NCBI RefSeq assembly: GCF_008704995.1
Contig: NZ_CP023747.1
Coordinates: forward strand, 1,576,501 to 1,640,500
Length of the DNA stretch: 64,000 nucleotides
Source: Streptomyces nodosus
GTDB lineage: Bacteria > Actinomycetota > Actinomycetes > Streptomycetales > Streptomycetaceae
Reading direction: 5' to 3'
Shown here one piece after another: positions 33,122 to 48,727 of the stretch (positions within the stretch are counted from its first letter, which is position 1; each line of letters starts with the position of its first letter). Made by a program: the position numbers and the translations under genes. The notes under the pieces are model-generated. The model searched no databases. It was not told the DNA's origin and saw nothing but the letters and a program-made list of their open reading frames with translations.

Positions 33122-33194
33122 GCGGACGTAGCTCAGTTGGTAGAGCGCAACCTTGCCAAGGTTGAGGTCGCGAGTTCGAGCCTCGTCGTCCGCT
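33122..33194 (+). tRNA. tRNA-Gly (anticodon GCC)
   Basis: 73 nt. Acceptor GCGGACG/CGTCCGC, discriminator T, anticodon stem CAACC/GGTTG with loop TTGCCAA, T loop TTCGAGC. First of five clustered tRNA genes. Confidence 0.97.
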
Positions 33195-33232
33195 CGTAGG
33201 AACCAGGGATCCTCCAGGGCCCCTGCACTCCC

Positions 33233-33303
33233 GGTGGAGTGGCCGAGAGGCGAGGCAACGGCCTGCAAAGCCGTCTACACGGGTTCAAATCCCGTCTCCA
33301 CCT
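33233..33303 (+). tRNA. tRNA-Cys (anticodon GCA)
   Basis: 71 nt. Acceptor GGTGGAG/CTCCACC, discriminator T (usual for tRNA-Cys), anticodon stem ACGGC/GCCGT with loop CTGCAAA, T loop TTCAAAT. 38 nt after tRNA-Gly. Confidence 0.97.
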
Positions 33304-33307
33304 CCAA

Positions 33308-33379
33308 GGACGATTAGCTCAGCGGGAGAGCGCTTCCCTGACACGGAAGAGGTCACTGGTTCAATCCCAGTATCGTCCA
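33308..33379 (+). tRNA. tRNA-Val (anticodon GAC), copy 1
   Basis: 72 nt. Acceptor GGACGAT/ATCGTCC, anticodon stem CTTCC/GGAAG with loop CTGACAC, T loop TTCAATC, discriminator A. It starts 4 nt after tRNA-Cys, so both must be cut from one precursor. Confidence 0.97.
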
Positions 33380-33433
33380 CTGGTCCGCGAGGACCACGGT
33401 CCGCCGGGGTCGGTATGATCCCCGAGGATCCCC

Positions 33434-33505
33434 GCGCGATTAGCTCAGCGGGAGAGCGCTTCCCTGACACGGAAGAGGTCACTGGTTCAATCCCAGTATC
33501 GCGCA
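33434..33505 (+). tRNA. tRNA-Val (anticodon GAC), copy 2 with altered acceptor stem
   Basis: 72 nt. Identical to the neighbouring copies except the acceptor stem, GCGCGAT/ATCGCGC in place of GGACGAT/ATCGTCC. Both changed pairs are compensated on the 3' side. Confidence 0.97.
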
Positions 33506-33547
33506 CGCGTCACCCAGGCCGTCTCCACGGAGCGGCCCTGGCCCCGA

Positions 33548-33619
33548 GGACGATTAGCTCAGCGGGAGAGCGCTTCCCTGACACGGAAGAGGTCACTGGT
33601 TCAATCCCAGTATCGTCCA
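33548..33619 (+). tRNA. tRNA-Val (anticodon GAC), copy 3
   Basis: 72 nt, same sequence as copy 1 from acceptor to discriminator. Last gene of the tRNA cluster; a strong hairpin follows 6 nt later. Confidence 0.97.
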
Positions 33620-33625
33620 CATCCC

Positions 33626-44633: not shown

Positions 44634-45467
44634 TCAGAAGGAGGGGATGACCGAGCCCTGGTACTTGTCCTCGATGAACTTCTTCACCTCGGGCGAGGTG
44701 AGCAGCTTCGCGAGCTTCTTGACGCGCGGGTCGTTCTCGTTGCCCTTCTTCACGGCGAGGAAGTTGCCGTAGGGGCTGTTGTCCGCGGACTCCAGGACGA
44801 GGGCGTCCTCGGCGGGCTTGAGACCCGAGGAGATGGCGTAGTTGCCGTTGATCACCGCGGCGTCCACGTCGTCGAGGGCGCGGGGCGTCTGGGCCGCCTC
44901 CAGCTCCTTGAACGTGAGGTCCTTGGGGTTCTTGACGATGTCCTTGGGGGTCGCCTCGGTCCCGACGCCGTCCTTGAGGGTGATCAGCCCGTTGGCGGCG
45001 AGCAGCTTGAGGGCGCGCGCCTCGTTGACGGTGTCGTTGGGGACGGCCACGGTCGCCCCCTTCTTCAGCTCGTCGACCTTCTTGACCTTGTGGGAGTAGA
45101 GGCCGAGCGGCTCCAGGTGCACCGTGACGACGGGCACGATGTGGGTGCCGTTCTTCTTGTTGAAGTCGTCGAGGTACGGCTGGTTCTGGAAGTAGTTGGC
45201 ACCGACGGACCCGTCCTCGGTCGCCGTGTTCGGCGTGACGTAGTCGGTGAACTCCTTGACCTCCAGGTCCAGCCCGGCCTTCTTCGCCAGGTTGTCCCTG
45301 ACGAAGTTGAGGATCTCGGCGTGCGGGGTGGGGCTCGCGGCGACGACCAGCGGTCCCTTGGAGTCGGAGGAGGCGGAGGAGTCCTTGCCGGAGCCGCAGG
45401 CGGTCAGGGCGAGTGTGAGGGCTCCGGTGACGAGGGCGGCAGTGGTGATCTTGGCGGTGTTACGCAC
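44634..45467 (-). CDS. metQ: Methionine ABC transporter substrate-binding lipoprotein MetQ
   Basis: 277 residues. A lipoprotein signal with lipobox LTAC (Cys24) anchors it outside the membrane. The NLPA/MetQ fold is clear: LVVAASPTPHAEILNFV, YFQNQPYLDDFNKKNGTHIVPV, VHLEPLGLYSHKVKKVDELKKGATVAVPNDTVNEARAL and INGNYAISSGLKPAEDAL. It captures D- or L-methionine for MetNI. GTG 45467 (VRNTAKITT) is preceded by GGAAAGG. It follows metI after 119 nt. Confidence 0.95.
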   Translation of the reverse strand: MRNTAKITTAALVTGALTLALTACGSGKDSSASSDSKGPLVVAASPTPHAEILNFVRDNLAKKAGLDLEVKEFTDYVTPNTATEDGSVGANYFQNQPYLDDFNKKNGTHIVPVVTVHLEPLGLYSHKVKKVDELKKGATVAVPNDTVNEARALKLLAANGLITLKDGVGTEATPKDIVKNPKDLTFKELEAAQTPRALDDVDAAVINGNYAISSGLKPAEDALVLESADNSPYGNFLAVKKGNENDPRVKKLAKLLTSPEVKKFIEDKYQGSVIPSF

Positions 45468-45586: not shown

Positions 45587-46351
45587 CTAGGCGGTCTCGC
45601 CCGCGTCGGCCGTGGCGGGCTCGGCGGTGGGGGCCGCTCCGCCGGGCGTCTTGTCCTTCAGCAGCCGGAGCCGGGGGGCGGATCCGGAGCGGCCGCCGCG
45701 GCGGTGCAGGGTGCGGGCCGCGTAGTCGCCGGCGAACTGGATCAGCGAGATGACGACGGCGAGGATCGCCACGGTGATCCACATCATCTGGGTCTCGAAG
45801 CGCTGGTAGCCGTAGCGGATGGCGATGTCGCCCAGGCCTCCGGCGCCGACGGTGCCGGCCATCGCGGAGTAGCCGATGAGGGCGACGATCGTGGTGGTGG
45901 CCGAGGAGATCAGCGAGGGCAGGGACTCCGGCACCAGGACCTTGCGCACGATGGTCCAGGTGTTGCCGCCCATCGCCTGCACCGCCTCGACGAGCCCGTC
46001 GTCCACCTCGCGTACGGCCGTCTCCACCAGGCGGGCGAAGAACGGGATCGCGCCGATGGCCAGCGGCACGATGGCGGCCTCACGGCCGATGGTGGTGCCC
46101 GTGATCCAGCGGGTGAAGCTCATCAGCGCGACCATCAGGATGATGAACGGCATCGACCGGGCGATGTTCACCACCTGTCCGATGACCTTGTTGGCGACGA
46201 GGTTCTGCAGCAGCCCCCCGCGGTCGGTCAGCACCAGGAGGATGCCGAGCGGCAGGCCGCCGACGATCGCTATCACGGTGGACCAGCCGACCATGTAGAG
46301 CGTGTCCCAACACGCCTGGGACAGCAGGGGCTGCATCTCGGACCAGGTCAC
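45587..46351 (-). CDS. metI: Methionine ABC transporter permease MetI
   Basis: 254 residues with five or six membrane helices and the permease EAA-type loop VEAVQAMGGNTWTIVRKVLVPESLPSLI, where MetN docks. Other family segments are WDTLYMVGWSTVIAIVGGLPLGILLVL and the ARSMPFIILMVALMSFTRWITGTTIG helix. The C-terminal 35 residues or so (RRGGRSGSAPRLRLLKDKTPGG...) extend beyond the E. coli protein. The GTG start overlaps the metN stop as GTGA. Confidence 0.95.
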   Translation of the reverse strand: MTWSEMQPLLSQACWDTLYMVGWSTVIAIVGGLPLGILLVLTDRGGLLQNLVANKVIGQVVNIARSMPFIILMVALMSFTRWITGTTIGREAAIVPLAIGAIPFFARLVETAVREVDDGLVEAVQAMGGNTWTIVRKVLVPESLPSLISSATTTIVALIGYSAMAGTVGAGGLGDIAIRYGYQRFETQMMWITVAILAVVISLIQFAGDYAARTLHRRGGRSGSAPRLRLLKDKTPGGAAPTAEPATADAGETA

Positions 46352-47382
46352 TTGGCACCTTCCTTCACGGGCGCGGGCCGCTGGCCCAGGACGTCGATCT
46401 GAAGGCCCTGCTCACGCAGGAAGCCGATGGGCACCACGTTCTCCTCGTAGCGGCCGGGCAGTTCGATGCGCATCCGGCCCACCTGCCGGCCGCCGACGGT
46501 GTCCATGGCGGCACCGAGGATCGAGATGTCGATGTTGTAGGTGCGCGCGAGCTGCGAGATGACGGGCTGGGTGGCGGCGTCCCCGTGGAAGGTGACGTCG
46601 ACGACGGTGCGGTCGTCGCCGGTCGCCTCGCCGCTGACCGGAAAGAGCGCGGCGGCCAGTTCGGAGCCGGGGGTGGCGAGCAGTTCGCCGACCGTGCCGG
46701 ACTCGACGATGCGGCCCTTGTCCATCAGTGCGGCCGAGTCACAGACGGTCTTGACCACGTCCATCTCATGGGTGATGAGCAGCACGGTCAGGCCCAGTTG
46801 ACGGTTGAGGTCGCGCAGCAGCTGGAGGATGGAGCGGGTGGTCTCCGGGTCGAGGGCGCTGGTCGCCTCGTCGGAGAGCAGCACCTTGGGGTCGCCGGCC
46901 AGGGCGCGGGCGATGCCGACGCGCTGCTTCTGGCCGCCGGAGAGCTGTGCCGGGTAGGCCTTGGCCTTGTCCGCCAGGCCGACGAGGTCGAGCAGTTCCA
47001 GGGCCTTGCCGGAACGTTCCTTCCCGGACCGGCCGAGGATCTCCAGCGGCAGCTCGACATTGTCCTGGACGGTGCGCGAGGACAGCAGGTTGAAGTGCTG
47101 GAAGACCATGCCGATCCGGCTGCGCGCCTGCCGCAGCTCCCTTCCGGCGCGGGGTCCGCGTCCGGCGAGCGCGGTGAGGTCCTGGCCGGCCACGGTGACC
47201 GTGCCGGCGGTGGGGCGCTCCAGGAGGTTGACGCAGCGGATGAGCGAGGACTTGCCGGCACCGGACTGGCCGATGACGCCGTACACCTCGCCCTCGCGTA
47301 CATGCAGGTCGACGCCGTCGAGGGCGGTCACCTCGCGGCCGTGCGAGCGATAGACCTTGGTCAGGCCCGATGTGGTGATCAC
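46348..47382 (-). CDS. metN: Methionine ABC transporter ATP-binding protein MetN
   Basis: 344 residues. Walker A GQSGAGKSS (38-46), Q-loop FQHFN, signature LSGGQ (147-151), Walker B VLLSDE (167-172), H-loop ITHEM. The C-terminal 90 residues or so form the NIL domain (VVDVTFHGDAATQPVISQLARTYNIDISILG), the methionine-sensing regulatory unit of MetN that closes the pump when the cytoplasm is replete. The start is GTG with GGAA at 9 nt. First gene of metN-metI-metQ; a 227-nt leader downstream of a Cys-rich reading frame precedes it. Confidence 0.96.
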   Translation of the reverse strand: MITTSGLTKVYRSHGREVTALDGVDLHVREGEVYGVIGQSGAGKSSLIRCVNLLERPTAGTVTVAGQDLTALAGRGPRAGRELRQARSRIGMVFQHFNLLSSRTVQDNVELPLEILGRSGKERSGKALELLDLVGLADKAKAYPAQLSGGQKQRVGIARALAGDPKVLLSDEATSALDPETTRSILQLLRDLNRQLGLTVLLITHEMDVVKTVCDSAALMDKGRIVESGTVGELLATPGSELAAALFPVSGEATGDDRTVVDVTFHGDAATQPVISQLARTYNIDISILGAAMDTVGGRQVGRMRIELPGRYEENVVPIGFLREQGLQIDVLGQRPAPVKEGAK

Positions 47383-47454
47383 TGGGTTTCCGTCACTGTC
47401 GAGTGCAGGCGTGGAGGTACGCCGGACACGGGTGCGTGCGTGGGAGCGCGCACG

Positions 47455-47468
47455 GTTCTCGCGAGAAC
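47455..47468. repeat. 14-bp palindrome in the metN leader
   Basis: GTTCTCGCGAGAAC. A second GTTCTC (minus strand, 47479-47484) upstream could pair with the same GAGAAC, giving two mutually exclusive hairpins ahead of metN. Confidence 0.5.
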
Positions 47469-47609
47469 GGTCGATCCGGAGAACGTGGCGCGGTGGCCCT
47501 CGCCGTTCGGGCAGCGGGGCGGGCTGGGTCTCGTACGCCGCGGGGCGTCACGGACGTGCCGGGCGGTCTCGCTTCGGGGCGCGAGGCTCTGCGGTGGTGC
47601 GGGGGCCCT

Positions 47610-47696
47610 CTAGCAGGCGCACATTCGACACCGACAACGAGCACCGGGCGTCATGGTCGCCTCGGTCGCAGAGATGCGGCAGCTCGTCGTGGTCAT
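47610..47696 (-). CDS. Cys-rich leader peptide upstream of metNIQ
   Basis: 28 codons, ATG 47696 to TAG. The peptide begins MTTTSCRIS and ends RCRCRMCAC, so five of its six cysteines fall in its last eight or nine residues, just before the stop. There is no Shine-Dalgarno sequence. An A/T-rich TTTACTTGAT lies directly upstream, so translation could start on a leaderless message. Cys-rich leaderless short frames act as cysteine-responsive attenuators of sulfur genes in mycobacteria; the position before a methionine importer fits the same logic. The peptide itself is probably not functional. Regulation is inferred, not shown. Confidence 0.65.
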   Translation of the reverse strand: MTTTSCRISATEATMTPGARCRCRMCAC

Positions 47697-47768
47697 GGGA
47701 TCAAGTAAAGCAGACACCCCACCGGAGCCGGGCCCGGCTGTCCGAATGGCGGACAGCCGGGGGTGTGT

Positions 47769-48419
47769 TCAGTCGCGTACGGAGATCTCCACCCCGCGGT
47801 CGGTGACCAGTACGGACAAGGCGGACAGGTCCTTCACCACCAGATCGGCGTCCAGTTCCCGGGCCTGGTGGGTTGTGGCCAACGCCACGGTCGTCATGCC
47901 GGCGGCCCGGCCGGCCGCCAGGCCCGCCGGGGCGTCCTCGAACACGACGCAGCGGGACGGGTCGACGCCCAGTGCGCGGGCGCCCAGCAGATAGGGCTCG
48001 GGATCGGGCTTGCCGCGGGTGACGTCGTTCGCGGTGATCAGGGTCTTGGGGCGGATGCCGACGGCCTCCAGCCGGGCCTCGGCGAGGCCGAGCGTGGCGG
48101 AGGTGACGACGGCCCAGCGGTCGGCCGGCAGCGCGTCCAGGAACTCCCTGGTGCCCGGGAGCAGATGGACGCCGCCGTTCGGCACGTCCTCGACCTCCAG
48201 CCGCTCGATGCGCGCCACGGCCTCCGGGACGATCTCGGCGGGCAGCAGATCGGCGGCGATCTCGGCGGCCGTACGGCCGTGCAGCGCGAAGCGTCCGAAC
48301 TGTTCCGCGGTGACGCCGTACTCCTGGGCCCAGAGCGTCCAGCACCGCCGGACCGATTCAAGGGATGAGACGAGCGTCCCGTCGTTGTCGAAGAGCAGGG
48401 CGTCAGCGTGGATCCTCAT
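47769..48419 (-). CDS. HAD-superfamily hydrolase (phosphatase-like)
   Basis: 216 residues. Motif I DNDGTL with the nucleophile Asp (here LLFDNDGTLVSS, Asn between the two Asp), motif II VVTSATLG, motif III Lys in RGKPDPEPYLLGA, motif IV VFEDAPAGLAAGRAAG. The cap lies between motifs I and II. It resembles sugar-phosphate phosphatases of the GPP/beta-PGM group; substrate unknown. The start MRIHAD has GAGG only 2-3 nt upstream. A roughly 160-bp palindromic element lies 9-17 bp before the start and separates the gene from its original upstream sequence. Confidence 0.88.
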   Translation of the reverse strand: MRIHADALLFDNDGTLVSSLESVRRCWTLWAQEYGVTAEQFGRFALHGRTAAEIAADLLPAEIVPEAVARIERLEVEDVPNGGVHLLPGTREFLDALPADRWAVVTSATLGLAEARLEAVGIRPKTLITANDVTRGKPDPEPYLLGARALGVDPSRCVVFEDAPAGLAAGRAAGMTTVALATTHQARELDADLVVKDLSALSVLVTDRGVEISVRD

Positions 48420-48427
48420 GGCCTCGA

Positions 48428-48599
48428 CCCTAAGAGCTCCGAACAAAAGTGGGGTCCGATCAGCGGGCGGTGTCCGGTGCATGCGATCGCAAGGCGCCGG
48501 AAGGTCCTTGTAGCGGAGCTACCAGGACCTTCCGGCAACGCGGCGAGCGTGCGTGCCGGGCGCCGCCCGCCGGGCCCCACTTTTGTTCGGAGCCCTAAG
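48428..48599. mobile_element. Palindromic MITE-like element 1 with CCTAAG target duplication
   Basis: Core 48436-48592: the two halves are near-complementary over their whole length around GTAGC-GGA-GCTAC (48510-48522). The outermost 19 bases, GCTCCGAACAAAAGTGGGG, are a perfect terminal inverted repeat. CCTAAG flanks both sides (48429-48434 and 48594-48599), as a target duplication would. No coding capacity. It resembles the element at 60.5 kb in its inner arms, where many differences between the arms are compensated. Confidence 0.75.
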
Positions 48600-48727
48600 G
48601 GGAGGCGATTCCCCGGCCTCGGGGGAGGCCCTGCCCCGGCTCCAGGAGATCCGGGAGAGGGCGGGGGCGGTCCGGTGAGACGTGGGCCGAGGACGTCGGG
48701 CCTTTTGGGCCGTAATAGGGTCACGGC

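Follow-up and report, generated by a model that had tools for sequence, protein, structure and literature searches.

A conserved short frame rich in Cys and Met codons precedes metNIQ in Streptomyces and related genera and is probably a switch reading sulfur amino acid supply

The DNA analyzed here, referred to as the window, is a stretch of 64,000 nucleotides (nt) from Streptomyces nodosus (contig NZ_CP023747.1, positions 1,576,501 to 1,640,500). Its minus strand carries an operon that, according to the profile assignments of metN, metI and metQ, encodes a MetNIQ-type importer, and this operon is preceded by a short upstream open reading frame (uORF) which, judged by sequence, is the orthologue of the metL leader peptide of Streptomyces lividans. 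The start codon of metN is a GTG at 47382, the stop codon of the uORF lies 227 nt upstream of metN, and the gene upstream of the uORF encodes a HAD-type hydrolase. The elements of the locus, in window coordinates, are:

47610..47696, minus strand: uORF of 28 codons (metL type leader peptide), from ATG to TAG, encoding MTTTSCRISATEATMTPGARCRCRMCAC followed by the stop
47616..47630, minus strand: putative sensor codons 23-27 (TGT CGA ATG TGC GCC), also 5' arm of the predicted Helix II, defined by codon counts and ensemble pairing
47704..47709, minus strand: -10 element TTTACT, 7 nt 5' of the uORF ATG (leaderless spacing), from sequence and conservation
47383..47609, minus strand: untranslated spacer with 45% C and 29% G (a bubble of C over G, possible Rho-loading region), from composition
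46348..47382, minus strand: metN, ATP-binding cassette (ABC) transporter ATPase with NIL domain; the best NCBIfam model is ABC_MetN TIGR02314 (E 1e-114, 383 bits, under the model cutoff of 500), and Pfam ABC_tran and NIL are above cutoff
45587..46351, minus strand: metI, permease, NCBIfam NF008049 above cutoff
44634..45467, minus strand: metQ, NlpA/MetQ-family lipoprotein (putative start codon), Pfam Lipoprotein_9 with E 3e-100, MetQ-type NCBIfam models below their cutoffs

Codons 6, 21, 23, 26 and 28 of the uORF encode Cys and codons 1, 15 and 25 encode Met. A preliminary description of this DNA had placed the 28-codon frame correctly, on the minus strand at 47610-47696 and 227 nt before metN, and had counted six Cys codons, five of them in the last nine; there are in fact five, four of which fall in the last eight codons, a number that does not change for the last nine. 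Its statement that such a density is unlikely by chance holds: taking as background the 37 proxy genes in the window, where 0.89% of the codons encode Cys, the binomial probability is around 4e-6 for five Cys in 27 codons and 4e-7 for four in the last eight, both uncorrected for the number of frames, and among the 247 frames of 20-60 codons present in the six reading frames of the window only the uORF has at least four Cys in its last eight codons. It is conservation, nevertheless, that decides the matter.

Conservation was evaluated in 150 genomes of the genus, all of which hold some relative of the metN protein. Seven of them (G001, G022, G044, G079, G110, G112 and G145) gave weak matches alone and were left out as presumably lacking a metN orthologue; G050 and G008, with a break at or near a contig end, and the second, equal match in G002 were also set aside, and 141 metN upstream regions were read. 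The uORF, matched on its first 20 residues, is present ahead of metN in 140 of these 141 loci and starts with ATG every time; the sole locus without it has just 152 nt of upstream DNA. Since frames were picked by the first 20 residues alone, their tails were not selected for, and two or more Cys occur among the last 11 residues of 136 of the 140. Within the 111 frames of 28 codons, Cys21 is found in 101, Met22 in 91 (Arg in the window), Cys23 in 104, Arg24 encoded by CGA in 108 and Met25 in 108. The hexamer CGAATG occurs in 138 of the 140 loci and is in frame with the ATG in all 138, at eight different distances, as expected of a translated sequence. The uORF is thus almost certainly translated, and conservation rules out a chance frame. 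An alignment of this kind was the check that the preliminary description had proposed, with loss of the frame or of its Cys codons across species as the outcome that would speak against it; both are conserved.

A wider set of 212 loci comprised Streptomyces, further genera from its family and four loci from a second family within the order, tentatively Catenulispora or a relative, after removal of eight repeated genomes, of L131 (too little upstream DNA) and of the loci from L230 on. A frame, 26 to 37 codons long, was obtained in 208 of them. The picker used here rewarded Cys, Arg-Met and the promoter site, so its counts lean toward these features, and the key counts were repeated on the set of 140 frames. 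As for the four loci with no chosen frame, L179 contains CGAATG with the ATG in a different frame, L212 has a 50-codon frame that is over the length limit, L220 has a frame that scored below threshold and L229, from another order, has a Met-rich frame. Among the class-level loci from L230 on, a crude scan gave no clear uORF of the metL type, and many of these matches are probably not metN; one of them, L231, has a frame ending in GGRCRMPHRF. Of a further 80 loci, 23 were checked, and a metL-type frame was present in 17 and absent from six. Such a frame precedes the metN homologue in two Kitasatospora records and in Actinomadura rubrisoli (MTAARSCLAHRSLTQRAGRMCCRRMCDR); the same scan found none in Agrococcus, Brevibacterium, Cellulosimicrobium, Cellulomonas, Arthrobacter and a record labelled Sphaerisporangium, with the limitation that in several of the six loci lacking the frame the match begins inside the protein, which makes the true start and orthology uncertain.

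In all 208 chosen frames the ATG is preceded, at 6 or 7 nt, by a TTTACT element or a variant of it, exactly TTTACT in 184, bearing in mind that the picker rewarded such a site. From this spacing, the mRNA of the uORF would start at or next to the ATG, that is, it would be leaderless. At the other end of the frame, the sequence GAGGGCC overlaps the stop codon (window 47604-47610) and is found at the stop in 176 of the 208 loci.

Cys and Met are concentrated at the end of the frame in the whole set. The last 11 residues contain at least two Cys in 202 of the 208 frames and at least one Met in 207, with means of 2.85 Cys and 1.88 Met, where the proxy genes in the window predict roughly 0.10 and 0.17. 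No tail is devoid of Cys, and a single one, GARCRCCTCAR of L127, is devoid of Met. In the other genera the means are 3.10 Cys (versus 2.77 in Streptomyces) and 1.92 Met, with tails such as MFTTAHISGTAATATGCRCMCRSCQMCRMCGC and MIANETSRMPAAIMAPRMMRCCVSCRMCSC, and adjacent Cys codons appear in some of them (CMCCCRMC in L197). Some of the inserts that lengthen the uORF repeat M-C-R units, adding both residues, and others (PL, LL, PVR) add neither.

Codon choice is also unusual, with TGT making up 434 of the 667 Cys codons of the frames versus 24 of 128 in the proxy genes. CGA accounts for 204 of the 207 Arg codons preceding the last Met, while the other Arg codons of the same frames are CGA in 5 of 593 cases and those of the proxy genes in 50 of 1189. 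These excesses indicate that rare codons are favoured in the uORF. Of all codon pairs, CGA-ATG (Arg-Met, window 47622-47627) varies least, and it is also kept in genera where the pairing with the metN start described below was not detected. In the genome, the only mismatch-free match to the sensor block is the one at metN, the others differing at two or three positions, and a genome scan with a pattern for polycysteine runs before a stop gave 40 and 40 matches, the control giving 29 and 41. The composition of the tails and their codons support a leader for sulfur amino acids and do not separate cysteine from methionine; cysteine is plausible as the signal.

The leader RNA was also analyzed for secondary structure, and the following elements were delimited:

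47682..47690, minus strand: Helix I 5' arm ACGACGAGC (codons 3-5), 9 base pairs with codons 19-21, from pair counts, slides and shuffles
47634..47642, minus strand: Helix I 3' arm GCTCGTTGT (codons 19-21), pairing with codons 3-5
47568..47585, minus strand: Hairpin III, CTCGC-GCCCCGAA-GCGAG, 3' of the uORF stop, pair probability 0.997 in the window leader
47397..47406, minus strand: Helix II 3' arm GCACTCGACA, within the initiation region of metN, a conserved block in the Streptomyces alignment, from pairing tests
47387..47394, minus strand: GACGGAAA, putative weak Shine-Dalgarno-like stretch before the metN GTG, from sequence reading

Whole-leader consensus folding was too gapped to be of use. 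In a column-pair scan of the 140 Streptomyces leaders, with the middle of the spacer excluded, the longest helix was Helix I, with nine pairs; its mean pair probability was 0.81 in the window leader and 0.83 over 153 Streptomyces leaders. When the arms were anchored, which was done for 175 of the 208 frames (the other 33 all come from other genera), eight or nine of the nine positions were paired in 157. The mean was 8.54 pairs, and 5.72 at most with an arm slid by one to three bases. Compensatory changes on both arms were seen at three pairs, the clearest being AGC/GCT to AAC/GTT, which turns Ser5 into Asn and Ala19 into Val. Over 36 distinct arm pairs the mean was 7.56, against 7.28 with partners shuffled, and none of 3000 shuffles reached it; a broader anchoring, which took in 197 frames and 52 distinct arm pairs, gave 6.58 and 6.04, with none of 2000 shuffles as high. 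Helix I explains the conserved Thr-Thr-Ser and Gly-Ala-Arg residues. A CCCCGA-type loop like that of Hairpin III is present downstream of the stop in 184 of the 208 loci, where not every match forms a good stem. No U tract follows Hairpin III in the window sequence, so that it does not qualify as a classical terminator hairpin.

Unconstrained folding of the window leader returned Helix I, Hairpin III and a pairing between the sensor codons and GCACTCGACA, which immediately precedes the Shine-Dalgarno-like stretch. This last pairing, Helix II, was evaluated as ensemble pairing between the sensor codons and the last 30 nt before metN, in every third Streptomyces frame (52 of 155) and every second frame from elsewhere (26 of 52), with L127 omitted as it has no Arg-Met. 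In the 52 Streptomyces loci the mean was 0.331, in comparison with 0.121 when the start stretch was shuffled, 0.103 when the sensor codons were shuffled and 0.032 for other spacer windows (Wilcoxon p of 4e-5, 5e-6 and 6e-8, respectively), and 36 of the 52 loci exceeded their shuffled start stretch. As a statistical tendency, and in Streptomyces alone, codons 23-27 are therefore predicted to pair with the metN start region. Because several of the conserved Cys codons of Streptomyces fall in RNA that is predicted to be paired, they may be conserved partly for structural reasons.

The position of the sensor codons beside the stop, the rare codons, the leaderless type of start and the RNA arms within and beyond the frame fit ribosome-mediated attenuation, and the conserved uORF is probably a switch by which the supply of sulfur amino acids is read for metNIQ. 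In its more specific form, that of a ribosome-mediated attenuator of metNIQ whose sensor for sulfur amino acids would most likely read charged tRNA-Cys, with Met contributing, we consider the proposal an even call. The uORF, beginning at or beside the 5' end of the mRNA, would be translated. With a good supply, the ribosome would reach the stop and depart, codons 3-5 would pair with codons 19-21 in Helix I and, in Streptomyces, codons 23-27 would pair just upstream of the weak Shine-Dalgarno of metN in Helix II, hindering translation of metN. If charged tRNA-Cys (or Met) were short, the ribosome would wait on codons 21-26 and cover the 5' arm of Helix II, the metN start would stay open and the importer would be made. 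The comparisons show the conservation of the frame together with its stop, the end rich in Cys and Met, the conserved CGA-ATG, Helix I and its compensatory changes, the hairpin after the stop and, as a tendency in Streptomyces, Helix II. We infer the stalling, the identity of the amino acid sensed, the direction of the response and an output at the level of metN translation rather than transcription. A further version, held only tentatively and well short of even, is a dual cysteine and methionine sensor in which the sensor codons act both as starvation detector and as one strand of the RNA switch, with CGA-ATG as a built-in slow step. Because CGA-ATG is kept in genera where no explanatory pairing was found, either slowing programmed by the codon or an unrecognised RNA contact would be involved; our guess is that a slow CGA codon was placed before the sensor codons, the RNA contact being equally possible.

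The preliminary description had proposed a cysteine-responsive attenuator. Much of that proposal stands, namely a conserved and almost certainly translated uORF of the leaderless type, with Cys codons right before its stop and located ahead of metNIQ. What does not carry over is cysteine as the established signal, given that CGA-ATG is the most invariant element, that nearly every tail contains Met and that Cys26 is often replaced by Arg.

Several observations weigh against the attenuator proposed here. At the level of the peptide, the window uORF has no adjacent Cys codons (its tail is C-R-C-R-M-C-A-C), position 26 is Cys in 78 of the 111 frames of 28 codons and Arg in 31, and 6 of the 208 tails contain a single Cys. 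Helix I does not extend to all loci: under the broader anchoring, many frames from other genera pair at only two to five of the nine positions. Among the 36 distinct arm pairs, each of three positions of the helix is disrupted in 10. The shuffle statistics of both Helix I and Helix II ignore the relatedness of the loci. For Helix II, the 26 loci outside Streptomyces gave 0.066, against 0.082, 0.053 and 0.070 for the same three controls, and exceeded the shuffled start in 7 of 26; being unsupported there even though the tail is conserved, Helix II cannot be the general output. Within Streptomyces its two sides hardly vary, which leaves little covariation to count. Duplex energies between the uORF end and the metN start did not discriminate in this GC-rich DNA, with 38% of spacer windows equally good, and an ungapped best-helix comparison with shuffles gave a weak signal (p below 0.1 in 15% of the Streptomyces loci and 10% of the others); the ensemble comparison with shuffled arms alone set Streptomyces apart from its control. 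In the folding ensemble, pairing of the uORF with the Shine-Dalgarno stretch itself is infrequent, at 0.063 on average and 0.39 in the window. Finally, altering the candidate regulatory codons of the Streptomyces coelicolor ilvB leader is reported in PMC1262725 to have left regulation unchanged, so a good-looking Streptomyces leader peptide need not act by codon reading.

With the same sensor, the output could instead be Rho-dependent: a ribosome waiting at the Cys and Met codons beside the stop would shield the C-rich spacer from Rho, whereas after termination and departure of the ribosome Rho would load and transcription would end before metN. The spacer between uORF and operon has more C than G in all 208 loci (Streptomyces median 213 nt, 45% C and 29% G), and that of the window is in the top 1.1% for C minus G among windows of equal length in the 64 kb. 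Such a bubble is taken as a sign of Rho termination in PMC9426467, Rho has been proposed for mycobacterial cys leaders in PMC1262725, and no typical Rho-independent terminator was found after metL in PMC8079986. The sensor codons adjoin the stop also in the genera lacking Helix II, and a Rho mechanism needs only features found in all the groups read. On the other hand, C-rich untranslated DNA may have other causes in high-GC genomes, many loci have a stable hairpin after the stop, and this mechanism leaves no role for Helix II in Streptomyces, where pairing with the sensor codons would explain the conserved block at the metN start. We regard Rho-dependent attenuation as less likely than not, though a serious alternative, and control through Helix II and through Rho could both operate. 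Another doubt concerns the signal, which might be methionine and not cysteine, as PMC8079986 lists for S. lividans metL. The operon imports methionine, Met is found in all tails but one, Arg-Met is the most invariant pair, and the short Met-rich frame MTPQGRVMCRGTRMCGTARMCAMGGMPSMR precedes the metN homologue of L229, possibly a methionine-leaning version of the leader. Nonetheless, Cys is the commoner of the two residues in the tails and the one further above expectation, it is present in every tail, including that of L127 where Met is missing, and frames of the second family of the order have ends such as RMMRCCVSCRMCSC; methionine as the signal in place of cysteine is a doubtful option.

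It is improbable that the conserved unit is a structured RNA element, such as a riboswitch or a protein site, with an incidental reading frame. Helix I, the hairpin after the stop and the strongly conserved nucleotides would agree with it, and the residues attributable to Helix I, Thr-Thr-Ser and Gly-Ala-Arg, would be accounted for; yet CGAATG keeps the ATG frame over all eight distances, and Cys and Met are equally enriched in other genera, where Helix II was not found. A known riboswitch was rejected, as no Rfam family matched positions 46800-47900 up to an E value of 5, and in the whole window tRNAs were the only matches at gathering thresholds. More improbable still is a nascent-peptide metal sensor similar to the copper-responsive CruR of Bordetella, which works with a CXXC motif and Rho (PMC9426467). 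The C-x-C and M-C motifs are potential ligands for a soft metal, but at the extreme C-terminus of a 28-residue peptide they would lie inside the ribosome tunnel during translation; moreover, the downstream operon is no metal system and the window peptide has no RAPP motif.

The closest described counterpart is the metL leader peptide reported in the reannotation of S. lividans TK24 (PMC8079986). It lies at the same site ahead of metNIQ, its printed sequence is MSTTSDRTPATEATTTPGARCMCRRMCAF, and it is listed there as leaderless and methionine-dependent, with "several methionines and threonines", several hairpins downstream and termination described as unclear. The loci L008 and L014 encode exactly this peptide, and many intermediates connect it with its homologue MTTTSCRISATEATMTPGARCRCRMCAC of the window. 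The preliminary description saw in the frame an extension of leaderless Cys-rich regulation to a methionine importer in Streptomyces; as that report shows, the element itself was already known from this genus. Its accessible text deals with one species and with methionine and makes no mention of cysteines, conservation or pairing, and a literature search, whose coverage excludes most subscription papers, gave no other title on a metNIQ leader. What is added here is the passage from an annotation in one species to a conserved element, found at nearly all Streptomycetaceae metN loci read, at four loci of a second family and at one of Actinomadura. A leader for sulfur amino acids is in this way placed on a methionine importer instead of a cysteine operon.

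Among the systems described in other bacteria, the mycobacterial polycysteine short open reading frames are leaderless and act as cysteine-responsive attenuators (Canestrari et al., 2020, PMC8764745, as cited in PMC9094748, PMC9031893 and PMC13236596). The uORF shares with them Cys codons and a location before a sulfur-related operon, and its start, judged from the promoter spacing, would also be of the leaderless type. Their Cys codons are contiguous, in contrast to the window frame, where none are adjacent and Cys is mixed with Met, and their response to cysteine has been reported, whereas that of the window uORF is a prediction. It would therefore resemble them in its way of working and, by contiguous Cys, would not be counted as a member. 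Candidate leader peptides of cys operons in Mycobacterium and Propionibacterium acnes, for which Rho was suggested, likewise have Cys codons near the stop and no conserved terminator hairpin, although the operons differ; the same source reports no conserved RNA structures ahead of actinobacterial methionine operons (PMC1262725). The LEU element before actinobacterial leuA offers a parallel for sensor codons that pair with a downstream start region, a pairing predicted here in Streptomyces and unsupported in other genera. It differs in its Leu codons, its pseudoknot and the gene concerned, and classical attenuation is deemed unlikely there (PMC1262725). The uORF also recalls CruR, whose translating ribosome is thought to guard a bubble of C over G from Rho (PMC9426467); CruR is a longer protein, with CXXC and RAPP motifs, and responds to copper.

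Upstream of the uORF promoter there is one more element:

47738..47756, minus strand: inverted repeat CTGTCCG-CCATT-CGGACAG, from sequence, largely conserved in the Streptomyces alignment

This repeat may terminate transcription of the upstream hydrolase gene or serve as an operator. As CTGTCCG-N5-CGGACAG it has a single mismatch-free site in the genome, and the idea of a regulon operator was discarded on this ground and on the low number of matches with at most two mismatches, 2 and 7 on the two strands, both counts including the site itself (3 and 1 for the control).

Two other observations were made in the window. Five clustered tRNA genes, one for Gly, one for Cys and three for Val, are located at 33122-33620. 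At 48428-48601 there is a palindromic element resembling a miniature inverted-repeat transposable element, with 31-nt arms that are 90% complementary and an inner hairpin of 19 nt. Its end, GCTCCGAACAAAAGTGGGG, has 14 matches per strand with at most two mismatches, against none for the reversed-pattern control, and these matches form 14 facing pairs, eight at the spacing of the window copy (139 nt) and six shorter.

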